Part shown: positions 42,701 to 51,700 of the stretch, piece by piece
Position numbering within the stretch: position 1 is the first letter of the stretch
How the letters are laid out: each line of letters opens with the position of its first letter
From: Lampris incognitus
Lineage: Eukaryota > Chordata > Actinopteri > Lampriformes > Lampridae
Assembly (NCBI RefSeq): GCF_029633865.1
Contig: NC_079215.1
Span: 51,289,693 to 51,353,692 of the forward strand
Length of the DNA: 64,000 nucleotides
Reading direction: 5' to 3'
Made by a program: the position numbers and the translations under genes
The notes under the pieces: model-generated
The model's database searches: none
What the model saw: only the letters and a program-made list of their open reading frames with translations
What the model was told of the DNA's origin: nothing

Positions 42701-45700
42701 GGGGGGACACATGCATTTATGGGTATACATTATTTTCTAATGAACATGTAATTTTCTGGTTAGCCTACTAACTCGTGTAGAACAGTAGTCTTAGTGGTCA
42801 ATTATGAGCTGCTAGGGAATATTTCTTGCATGCACACACACACCACACAAACACATACCCCCACACACACACACACACACATTATTGAATGTAACTGGCA
42901 TGGATTTTTTTTCCATAGGGTAGAGTCTCGGTTGATGGAAAGAGACGTCGAGACACAAAGACATGCACACACATACACACCTTGTTGTTAAAGCTATCCT
43001 GGGTGAGCGCAGGTGAAGAAAGATGATTGCCCTTTGCAATGTCCCTGGCAATGAGTAGTTTCACCTTGCTGCCAGCATTTCGCAGCACCTGGGCCAAGTG
43101 GTCATTTATGAAGGCATGGAAAGGGATGGCATTAGAAACAGAGTTGGAAAGGGCCTGCTGCCCTGGACAGCTACAGCAGATGGAAAAGATCTACTGTGAC
43201 TGAAAAGCACCTTGTCACCAGTGACATTGCAATGTCAGATCTACAGATTTTATTGGAACTTAAAACTACGTTTACATTTAAATCAGCCGAAATAAGTCAA
43301 ACTTTAGGTGACAGATTTTGGAAAAACTAGCAATCGACCGCCTCATAAATATTTACAAAAGGGCACCATTACCTGTGCCACCTGTTCACTGTTCATGCCC
43401 AACAACTCAGTGTCTCCGATGCGCAGGATTTGGTCTCCACTACGCAGGCGCTTGTCCTGAGTGACCCCCATCACAACAAATACATCCAAGCGTGAGACTT
43501 CTGTATGACCTTTCTATGATTCAAGACTTGAGCATGTGTGTGATTTAGTGCACATTCCATCCATGCAATGCACGTACCACAGACTCTACTCAAATGGATT
43601 TTCTAAGTCAGTGCTTAAATCCAGCTGTATGACTTTCTGTGTATTACAGCACATTGTTTGTTGCAGTAACTTATTGGCTGGCTGTTTGATGACTGGTCAA
43701 CTGACAGATGAGAGGGTGGATTTACCCGTCCTGCAGCTCCTCCAGGAAGGATGGTCTTGACCATGACCCCCGTGCTCCTTCCTCCAATGATACCAAACCC
43801 AAGGCCCTTCCCATCGTTGTTCAGCTCTATCATCTCTATATGACGTCTCTAACAGGACAGAGAGTAGAGAGCAAACACGTGAGAGGTTGCAGTGAAAGAG
43901 ATAAGTAATAAACGAGCAAGAGAGGGAGAGAGGAGTGAAAGTGAGGGAGTCAAGACAGAGAGAGGACCAGAGATTGAAGAGAAAGATGTAGAGAAAGAAA
44001 GATCAATTAGCTGAAACAAACTAAATTGTACACACTTACAACTCATTTACAATATGAGAGTCTTTACATGGGAATTTACCTCATGTGCAATAGCGGCTAA
44101 GTTTTTCCCCATTGACAGGCTCCGGGTGATTCGAGGAGGAGTGCAGTACTTGTCAAAAAAAATAAATAAATAAAATACATATGACAGTTCAAACAAAATC
44201 TTAGCTTTTTTTTTTCTCCAAAAATGTTAACAGGATGCTGACCGGCCTTGAACTGTCAGTTGAAGACTTCACGTAAAATTCAGCTGAAGTCTGCTTGACT
44301 TTTGAAATCTGATTTGGTGCTTCAGTTTTAATCATCCCAAAATTTTACTTTTTCGGGGTGATGTATAACTTCAAAATGTAATAACTTCAATAAATAGATA
44401 AATAAATGAATAAATAATCAATAAATTCTATAAATAATAAATAAAATGAAAAAAATTATATATATATATAATATTTAGTATAAATACACTACCGTTCAAA
44501 AGTTTGGGATCACATTGAAATGTCCATATTTTTGAAGGAAAAGCACTGTACTTTTCAATGAAGATAACTTTAAACTAGTCTTAACTTTAAAGAAATACAC
44601 TCTATACATTGCTAATGTGGTAAATGACTATTCTAGCTGCAAATGTCTGGTTTTTGGTGCAATATCTACATAGGTGTATAGAGGCCCATTTCAAGCAACT
44701 ATCACTCCAGTGTTCTAATGGTACAATGTGTTTGCTCATTGGCTCAGAAGGCTAATTGATGATTAGAAAACCCTTGTGCAATCATGTTCACACATCTGAA
44801 AACAGTTTAGCTCGTTACAGAAGCTACAAAACTGACCTTCCTTTGAGCAGATTGAGTTTCTGGAGCATCACATTTGTGGGGTCAATTAAACGCTCAAAAT
44901 GGCCAGAAAAAGAGAACTTTCATCTGAAACTCGACAGTCTATTCTTGTTCTTAGAAATGAAGGCTATTCCATGCGAGAAATTGCTAAGAAATTGAAGATT
45001 TCCTACACCGGTGTGTACTACTCCCTTCAGCGGACAGCACAAACAGGCTCTAACCAGAGTAGAAAAAGAAGTGGGAGGCCGCGTTGCACAACTGAGCAAG
45101 AAGATAAGTACATTAGAGTCTCTAGTTTGAGAAACAGACGCCTCACAGGTCCCCAACTGGCATCTTCATTAAATAGTACCCGCAAAACACCAGTGTCAAC
45201 ATCTACAGTGAAGAGGCGGCTGCGGGATTCTGGGCTTCAGGGCAGAGTGGCAAAGAAAAAGCCATATCTGAGACTGACCAATAAAAGAAAAAGATTAAGA
45301 TGGGCAAAAGAACACAGACATTGGACAGAGGAAGACTGGAAAAAAGTGTTGTGGACGGATGAATCCAAGTTTGAGGTGTTTGGATCACAAAGAAGAACGT
45401 TTGTGAGACGCAGAACAAATGAAAAGATGCTGGAAGAATGCCTGACGCCATCTGTTAAGCATGGTGGAGGTAATGTGATGGTCTGGGGTTGCTTTGGTGC
45501 TGGTAAGGTGGGAGATTTGTACAGGGTAAAAGGGATTCTGAATAAGGAAGGCTATCACTCCATTTTGCAACGCCATGCCATACCCAGTGGACAGCGCTTG
45601 ATTGGAGCCAATTTCATCCTACAACAGGACAATGACCCTAAACACACCTCCAAATTGTGCAAGAACTATTTAGAGCAGAAGCAGGCAGCTGGTATTCTAT

Positions 45701-48700: not shown

Positions 48701-51700
48701 TACCATCCAAACTGGTGTTGAAACTCAGAGGTCTTGGTCTGGGCAACTCTATCTGTAATTGGCTATTTCATTTCCTGACAGGCAGGCCCCAGACTGTGAG
48801 AATAGGTAAAACGTACTCATCCACATTAGTTCTTAGGACCGGTGCACCTCAGGGCTGTTGTTTCGGCCCCCTATTGTACAGTCTGTTTACACATGACTGT
48901 GTTGCCAAATATGAAAACAACAGCATCATCAAATTTGCAGATGACACCACAGTGGTTGGACTAATAAGCGACAGTGATGATAAGGCCTATAGGCGGGAAG
49001 TGGAAGATTTAACAATCTAGTGCCATGATAACAACCTAAATGTCAGTAAGACAAAAGAAATCATTGTTGACTCTATAAAGATCGGAGGGAATCACATTCC
49101 TATTTCCATCAATGGGTAATCTGTTGAAATAGTGGACAGTTTTAGATTTCTCAGTTTACACATCACAGACACCCTCACATGGTCTCTCAACACCAATTGC
49201 AACCTCAAGAAGGTACAGCAGAGACTGTATTTTCTGAGGCGTCTCAAGAGTTTTGGTGTGAGTACCAAAACTCTTATGAACTTTTAACGCAGTACCATGG
49301 AGAGTGTCTTGACAGGCTGTATCACAGTGTGGTTTGGCAACCTGACAGTTCAGGGCTGCAGACTGCTTCAAAGGACTGTAAAGACAGCAGAAAAAAATCA
49401 TTGGCATGGAACTACCACAGCTTCATAATATTTACACCACTTGCTGCAAAAGGAAAGCCCCAAATATCATTAAGGACACCAGCCACCCCTCTCAGGTTCT
49501 GTTCTCGCTCATTCTATCTAATAAAAAAAAAAACCATTACCAGAGCATCAAATCACACACCACCCATCTCAGTAATTGTTTCTTTCCACAGGCAGTCAGG
49601 TTCCTGAACAGCTGACACACCCATATGCCCCTCACATTGTTGTGTTATCACGTACTGTATTTTGTGTATATAATGTATGAATTCGTTGTGTACATAGTCT
49701 GTAATGTTGTACTTTTTTTGGGGGGGGGTGTTTCTGTGTCCTTTGTCTTTGTGTCCCTTCTGTTAAGGCAGACAGAGCTAGAGCATAATAATTTCATTGT
49801 ATTCTAATACACATGATAATAAAGCTGAAATTGTCCACTATACTGGCTGAGTTCACCGACGAACGCACCTTCAACTAGAAAGGGGAGGACTAATCAGTGA
49901 AATGGTTGAATACCACTGGGTTTAGGGCAGTGGTTTTCAATTAGGACCTCAGGGACCAGTACCGCTGTTGGTTTTCTATTCTGTCAGGTCAGGTAGGTCA
50001 TCACATTCACCAGTTGTGACAGGAAAACCAGCCATCTAATCAGGGAGTTTTTACACCTCGCACAACAGGTGAATATATCAACCTGCCTGGCAGAAAAGAA
50101 AGCCAGCAGTATCGGTGGTAAGTGAGGACCGGATTGAGGTCTTCTGTTCTAATTCATTGTCTAATCTCAAAACTCACAGCTTTTCCTAACCAATCTACAT
50201 AGGTTTTCTGGATTGGAGAACACATACGACTGTGTTCCAAGGTGAGGACATTCAGTCTCAATACACCGACTGTAAGGACTGGTTCAAAATCCTCGGCATT
50301 AAATTAAGATTATTCAATATTAATTGTCTGAGAGGCACAGCAGACTAATATGTTAGTGTCCCAACCCCTTAGGGCCACGGTACAAATCTCAGTATTGCTT
50401 CTGTTTTAGCTGGGCATTGCATGTACTGGAATTGGCAGCACTCATGGGTGGGGCATGGGCAGGGGTAACGCATCCCATCATTACACCGCTCCTATTCGGG
50501 ATTCTTTAATGGAGAGGACACCAAGGTGCAAAACAGGCCCAGAGGTTATCCGTCTTAATGATATCAGGATACCATCTCTGCTATTTCAGGATATGCTGCC
50601 CTCATCAGACAGTGATCTCCAGTGTGCACTGAAGCAGTTTGCTGTGATGCCACATAGATGAGGATCAACACCTCCAAATCTAATTCCACGTTCCCCAGGA
50701 CGCACTGGAGGCGTTATACAGCCTGTAATAGTTCTGGAGGGGTTAAGGATATCTGGGCTGCTTTCCTGGCTTTATTGCTGCTGAGATCTTGGCCCAGAGA
50801 AGTGGTTTTTAAGTGGATAGATGGAAAACAGGAGGCCTGATCAGAAAGCTCTAGGTTAGATTTCTGTAAATCTTCAAATGTCAATATAATCGAGTGTCAA
50901 GTTTCCTGGAATCCAGAGAGCCCGAAGCTCTATACTAAGACGACATAGCTAATGCAATTTGGTGGCAGACTGTGTGGCTTGTCGCTTAATGACATCTTGG
51001 TAAAATCAAAACCTCACGCTGACGGAGGCAAAAAGGGGGCTCAAACACACATAGAAACACAAACCCTAATTTGAATGGATAAATATGTCATGTGTAAAAA
51101 ATGATGCCACATGTATAATTGCCATGATCTTACTAATGACTTTTCCATATTCCTTGATTTACAATACTGACATCATCTCTCTCCCTCTCTCTCACTCTGT
51201 CTCTCTCTCTATCTCTCAGAGATTTAGTGGTAAGCTTAGGTAAGCTGATTATTCGGCCAGTGCGGTTCCTGTATTCAGTATTTCAGGAATTGTGTAGGTT
51301 CCCTCTTTATCGTTCAGAATACACCAACACCCCCACCCAAATGCACGTGTACGTGCACACACACCTTTGCTGGGGGTTGCCGCTGTGCTTGCTGCATTGT
51401 GAGTATATGGTGGAAGAGAGGGCTCTGCAGGACGGTCTTTAGCAGGGAGAGTTTCTCCTGAGTGTGGGCCTCTCCTCTCTCCCTTAATTTGGCTTGCAGT
51501 CTCTCCACAGCCTCCAACGCATGCTGAGCATCTGTAGGGAAATAATATGTCATTGGTTCCCTGCAGAAACATTGCCTCTCTAGTTTTGTGATTACATTTT
51601 AATTCTGGTGGGAATGTTTTGAGACTGGGTTATGAAATGGCAATAGCCAATGTATATTTGGTCTTGTGAGAAAATCAAAAAACCGTGGAATGCCCTGGTG

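Follow-up and report, generated by a model that had tools for sequence, protein, structure and literature searches.

The 64-kb stretch of Lampris incognitus DNA analyzed here (C6:51289693-51353692, hereafter the window) carries on its minus strand a gene of the mpdz type, both ends of which are predicted to lie inside the window. Its exons code for an L27 domain and then for PDZ2 to PDZ13 in collinear order, with nothing coding for PDZ1. The gene thus has 12 PDZ domains (PDZ2-13), whereas MPDZ has 13, with PDZ1 following L27. A second mpdz gene, located on contig C26 and carrying L27, a linker exon, two PDZ1 exons, and PDZ2 to PDZ13 in order, has all 13. The parts of the window gene, most of them located by tblastn and by a profile hidden Markov model (HMM), are as follows.

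52238 to 52292, minus strand: predicted first coding exon, 18 codons from an ATG at 52292, ending in phase 1; start codon and donor predicted
51365 to 51531, minus strand: L27 exon, phase 1 to 0, Pfam L27_2 match
46290 to 46517, minus strand: exon 3, 228 nt, 76 codons, open frame from phase 0 to phase 0 with splice sites; no known domain
44080 to 44148, minus strand: candidate exon 4, 69 nt, 23 codons, open frame from phase 0 to phase 0 with splice sites; composition unsupportive
43044 to 43848, minus strand: PDZ2, three exons, phase-0 start at 43848; tblastn, HMM and splice comparison with the C26 copy
40629 to 42653, minus strand: PDZ3; tblastn and HMM
38751 to 39233, minus strand: PDZ4; tblastn and HMM
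37705 to 38388, minus strand: PDZ5; tblastn and HMM
28432 to 34940, minus strand: PDZ6; tblastn, middle piece also HMM; final short piece 28464-28432 weak (expect value, E, of 0.31)
23831 to 25040, minus strand: PDZ7; tblastn and HMM
20558 to 21956, minus strand: PDZ8; tblastn and HMM
18437 to 19947, minus strand: PDZ9; tblastn and HMM
16966 to 18086, minus strand: PDZ10; tblastn and HMM
14776 to 16947, minus strand: PDZ11; tblastn and HMM; final short piece 14817-14776 weak (E 0.79)
12347 to 13264, minus strand: PDZ12; tblastn and HMM
638 to 1698, minus strand: PDZ13 and gene end; tblastn and HMM; stop codon immediately after PDZ13, at about 638

For the L27 exon, the match to Pfam L27_2 has an E value of 6.8e-23 and 80.8 bits against a cut-off of 27, and 31 of 52 residues are identical to human L27. 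The human MPDZ sequences used throughout were provisional, and those of PDZ1, 7, 10 and 12 were confirmed as identical in PDB alignments. Each domain from PDZ2 to PDZ13 is closest to its own counterpart among the human MPDZ domains, in order. The pieces are 46-84% identical to the human sequences, a figure that is lowered where some pieces extend into intron. Candidate splice signals stand beside most of the PDZ pieces, and many of their positions and phases are the same as in the C26 copy. These features bear on the idea that the window gene is a decaying pseudogene, in which the missing PDZ1 is one of several lesions. The loss of a domain, the presence of a full copy elsewhere in the genome, and the long branch described below would all suit such decay. 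Nevertheless, twelve domains recognizable at this level of identity, with splice signals that so often agree with the C26 copy, make a pseudogene a very improbable explanation.

We regard it as confirmed that this gene copy has no recognizable PDZ1 coding sequence. When human MPDZ PDZ1 (over 97 residues identical to PDB 2o2t) and human PATJ PDZ1 (2db5) were used in tblastn searches, nothing was found at E<=1 above position 43845 in the window; the same queries do match the PDZ2 exon itself at 43845. A PDZ HMM built from 14 sequences (human MPDZ PDZ1-13 and PATJ PDZ1) and run on all 2956 stop-to-stop frames with a minimum length of 12 codons recovered pieces of every domain from PDZ2 to PDZ13, with scores down to 8.8 bits. 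Between 43860 and 64000 it gave two matches only, at the chance-level values of E=10 and E=15, and an HMM of PDZ1 only gave no match above 43860 in the window. The PDZ1 exons of the C26 gene and of a related gene on contig C3 likewise remained at chance level as tblastn queries above 43860 (E>=0.1), and blastn with the C26 exons gave E values of at least 0.038 anywhere in the window, also chance level.

An earlier note on this DNA, made from the sequence alone, had seen no PDZ1 exon by eye in the intron sequence separating L27 from PDZ2. The tblastn searches with mammalian and fish (C26, C3) PDZ1 over 43-53 kb, including the interval 46518-51364, bear this out. The same note entertained an exon set that it could not see. 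This is unlikely given the tblastn, HMM, whole-genome and paralog-exon searches, and a hidden PDZ1 exon in the window was rejected on the tblastn, HMM and paralog-exon queries. The HMM missed three pieces of 11-16 residues that tblastn had found (PDZ6 34940-34893, PDZ6 28464-28432 and PDZ11 14817-14776), which means that a PDZ1 piece that short could escape detection, but one of at least 46 residues should not. The sole run of N in the window (62945-63144, 200 bases) marks a gap in the assembly that lies upstream of the gene, and none lies between L27 and PDZ2.

At its donor, which reads AAG/GTGTGT, the L27 exon is in phase 0. Exon limits and phases read from the sequence agree with those first proposed: 46290-46517 and 44080-44148 run from phase 0 to phase 0, PDZ2 starts in phase 0, and the window copy can be read in one frame from L27 to PDZ2 without PDZ1. 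The proposal that both intervening intervals are usable exons fared less evenly. Codon usage was scanned across 52200-43700 after training on 2406 codons from the two genes, and a candidate had to measure 60-450 nt and to have a fair donor and an acceptor rich in pyrimidines; L27 and PDZ2 were in the training set and exon 3 was not. Scores above 8 are reported for three intervals, namely the first PDZ2 exon (18.5), the L27 exon (9.1) and exon 3 (8.7). Exon 3 is therefore coding-like in composition and scores like the L27 exon. Candidate exon 4 scores -0.7 and has no composition support, so it may not be a real exon.

Could exons 3 and 4 encode a PDZ1, or could PDZ1 be present but diverged past recognition? 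The window copy evolves fast, and the 23 residues of exon 4 equal in number the 23-residue tail that follows PDZ1 in the C26 copy, to which they bear a weak likeness (138 of 2000 shuffles were as good, and for the human tail 126 of 2000). That likeness is not significant, and each of the other twelve PDZ domains in this same copy is recognized by at least a piece. Moreover, exons 3 and 4 entered together as a single sequence have no Pfam match at E<=1, and exon 3 has no PDZ-profile match. We therefore consider it highly unlikely that a PDZ1 is present in either form.

Other origins for the two exons were also tried. The best E value for exon 3 was 0.73 in the 90-kb C26 region and 0.043 in the C3 region. 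The match of exon 4 to the C26 region (E 0.008, 15 residues) lies on the strand opposite to the gene and was taken as chance. Exon 3 as a counterpart of the C26 exon linking L27 to PDZ1 was equaled by 205 of 2000 shuffles in local and 128 in global mode, and exon 4 as a stump of the second C26 PDZ1 exon by 138 (local) and 149 (global) of 2000; neither was taken as significant. Both exons contain the basic motif RI[ST][KR]SLSM, which presumably could be a kinase or 14-3-3 site. Their likeness to each other, equaled by 35 of 2000 shuffles (local), comes from this common motif and is uncorrected for ten comparisons in two modes.

The phases in the C26 gene suggest how a frame could survive. There phase 0 closes the L27 exon, the linker exon runs from 0 to 0, the two PDZ1 exons run from 0 to 2 and from 2 to 0, and PDZ2 starts in phase 0. 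The PDZ1 exons (140 and 217 nt, together 357 nt or 119 codons) are flanked by phase-0 introns, so that removing both is frame-neutral and removing one is not. According to one report, deletion of mouse Mpdz exons 4 and 5 gives a frameshift (PMC5494508), which fits a PDZ1 that is split over exons and must be removed jointly.

A protein search for PDZ1 through the whole genome (1.48 Gb in 537 contigs, with all 83 first-look candidates scored) gave 42 matches at E<=0.1. The top two are the C26 exons, at C26:21450852-21451109 (5.5e-18) and C26:21450351-21450506 (4.3e-16), and the remainder fall below them, the best being a PDZ13 exon of C26. Two matches, C3:114418388-114418528 and C3:114416745-114416885, are exons of another gene (C3:114391575-114431240), which has an L27 of its own upstream of them. 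Because these diverged exons, 49 and 53% identical to the query, were recovered, the sensitivity of the search is shown. The first PDZ3 piece of the C3 gene matches human PATJ PDZ3 only, and we provisionally call the gene patj-like, with L27 and PDZ1. The name is provisional because human MPDZ PDZ1 gives the two PDZ1 pieces of this gene slightly better scores (47.4 and 36.2 bits) than human PATJ PDZ1 does (44.3 and 31.6). The assembly thus appears to hold one full PDZ1 of the mpdz type, in the C26 gene, and a related PDZ1 in the C3 gene. No further mpdz-type PDZ1 was found genome-wide, and relocation of the window copy's PDZ1 was rejected. A locus at C17, 48.05-48.07 Mb, was also rejected as an additional mpdz; its pieces match at 37-55%, no L27 lies in the 50 kb examined, and we take it to be dlg-like. 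The original suggestion that the lineage lost PDZ1 consequently holds for the window copy, but not for a genome in which the C26 mpdz keeps all 13 PDZ domains and the C3 gene carries a PDZ1.

The introns of the window gene contain repeats. One element occupies most of the interval between candidate exons 3 and 4.

44466 to 46122, no strand assigned: element of 1.66 kb with 48-nt inverted-repeat ends, 88% complementary

We take this element to be Tc1/mariner-like. Intron stretches 49105-49282 and 42079-42256 are 99.4% identical to each other; this repeat is probably a transposon, perhaps LINE-like by our assumption. An overlapping stretch, 49232-49703, matches 10829-11279 at 82%. Outside the gene, 58863-59254 is a dispersed repeat, about 390 nt long, which the 90-kb C26 region matches 15 times over more than 200 nt, and no upstream gene was recognized by eye among the 45 longest of 406 open reading frames in the window and 20 kb beyond.

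Repeats in both introns between L27 and PDZ2, among them the inverted-repeat element and stretches that recur elsewhere in the window, one of these nearly identical to 42079-42256, invite the thought that the PDZ1 exons of the window copy were collapsed or dropped during assembly. We judge such an artefact very unlikely, given that the region has no run of N, that the genome search found no orphan mpdz-type PDZ1, and that the flanking exons are in frame without PDZ1.

In a comparison of seven PDZ domains (625 columns), identity to human MPDZ is 84% for the C26 copy and 67% for the window copy, and the two copies are 68% identical to each other. Identity of the window gene to the human PATJ domains in the comparison is 54%. 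These figures, like the trees, rest partly on provisional human sequences and on a mixed outgroup row. Likelihood trees on 754 columns grouped the window and C26 copies under all three models, with approximately unbiased (AU) test values of 0.73, 0.93 and 0.83. The alternative tree, with C26 beside human and the window copy beside PATJ, was not rejected (AU 0.31, 0.10 and 0.21). The branch of the window copy measures 0.43-0.57 and that of the C26 copy 0.06; by these estimates the window copy is fast-evolving and the C26 copy slower.

Linkage to nfi genes was also examined. One nfi gene (C6:49327335-49327448) lies 2.0 Mb from the window gene and another (C26:16045834-16045947) lies 5.4 Mb from the full mpdz. 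In human, PATJ and MPDZ are near NFIA and NFIB. Between the C6 nfi exon and one on contig C13, 180 residues align at 97.8% identity (92.4% over 197 in the reverse comparison), in a comparison that took in four of the five nfi exons found. We take the C6 gene to end like human NFIX and the C26 gene like human NFIB. The presence of nfi genes on both mpdz chromosomes may reflect an old joint linkage of nfi with mpdz/patj genes. KANK genes were uninformative as markers, none of five being on C6 or C26.

Taken together, these results make it very probable that the window holds a duplicate, fast-evolving mpdz that has lost its two PDZ1 exons, and that a slower, full-length mpdz on C26 keeps them. 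Several points weigh against this reading. Some short pieces of the gene model, in PDZ6 and PDZ11, are weak, the splicing across exons 2 to 5 is predicted, exon 4 lacks compositional support, and an assembly error between the intron repeats keeps a small probability, although no run of N lies there. A single species and a single assembly were covered, which bears on the fixation and age of the loss. On the age of the duplication, the likelihood trees lean toward a fish-specific event and raw four-taxon site patterns toward an older one. The latter place human with C26 and the window copy with PATJ at 15 sites, against 5 that join C26 with the window copy and 6 that join human with the window copy; long branches could produce this 15-to-5 skew. 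If linkage is assumed to mark family membership, the window gene has nfix-type rather than nfib-type linkage, a hint that the duplicate is older than a fish-specific one and arose on the chromosome of nfix.

The window gene might be an ancient vertebrate gene that joins MPDZ and PATJ as the third of their family, derived from the early vertebrate genome duplications, carried on the nfix chromosome, lost in mammals, and with PDZ1 exchanged for a disordered linker, possibly regulated by phosphorylation in view of the basic motif in exons 3 and 4. We consider this combination unlikely and lean toward a fish-specific mpdz duplicate. The loss concerns one diverged duplicate and looks like ordinary divergence after gene duplication.

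For the favored history of a duplicated mpdz, the PDZ1 exon pair would have been lost after the duplication, when constraint was relaxed because the C26 copy keeps PDZ1, and removal of the pair would have kept PDZ2 in frame with L27. If expressed, the gene would yield a scaffold of L27 and 12 PDZ domains (PDZ2-13) in which a linker of 76 to 99 residues with no known fold replaces PDZ1. Such a protein would keep the partners of L27 and the ligands of PDZ2-13 but not those of PDZ1, and ligands that need PDZ1 would go to the C26 product. As a junction scaffold it should retain L27 pairing and PDZ2-13 ligands, judging from its domain content.

NG2 is a ligand of PDZ1. In one report NG2 acts through Mpdz, with the domain unnamed (PMC5494508). 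In pull-downs described in another, MUPP1 PDZ2, a domain retained in the window gene, took up the end motif of CADM1, and binding persisted when PDZ2 was disabled in a fragment spanning PDZ1-5, which indicates that other domains contribute (PMC7177587). Among the titles and abstract openings of the matches listed in open PMC text, no mpdz without PDZ1 appeared, and a single paper listed there mentions mpdza but not mpdzb. Because loss of a single domain from one of two duplicates is common, the general surprise is small. If the same is true in other fish, they would offer a natural comparison of two mpdz copies per animal, one without PDZ1, and this would help to reveal the part that PDZ1 plays in a scaffold of 13 such domains. 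Annotations of mpdz in such genomes may mix two architectures.

The window gene resembles MPDZ/MUPP1 in its N-terminal L27_2 domain, in the collinear order of PDZ2 to PDZ13, and in the many splice positions and phases of PDZ exons that it has in common with the C26 copy. It differs in having no PDZ1 and 12 rather than 13 PDZ domains, in its faster evolution, and in having one or more exons without a match after L27 and before PDZ2. PATJ/INADL, the MPDZ paralog, has 10 PDZ domains (PMC3162930). It is similar to the window gene in combining L27 with many PDZ domains. Unlike the window gene, PATJ has a PDZ1 (2db5), as does the patj-like gene on C3 in this genome.

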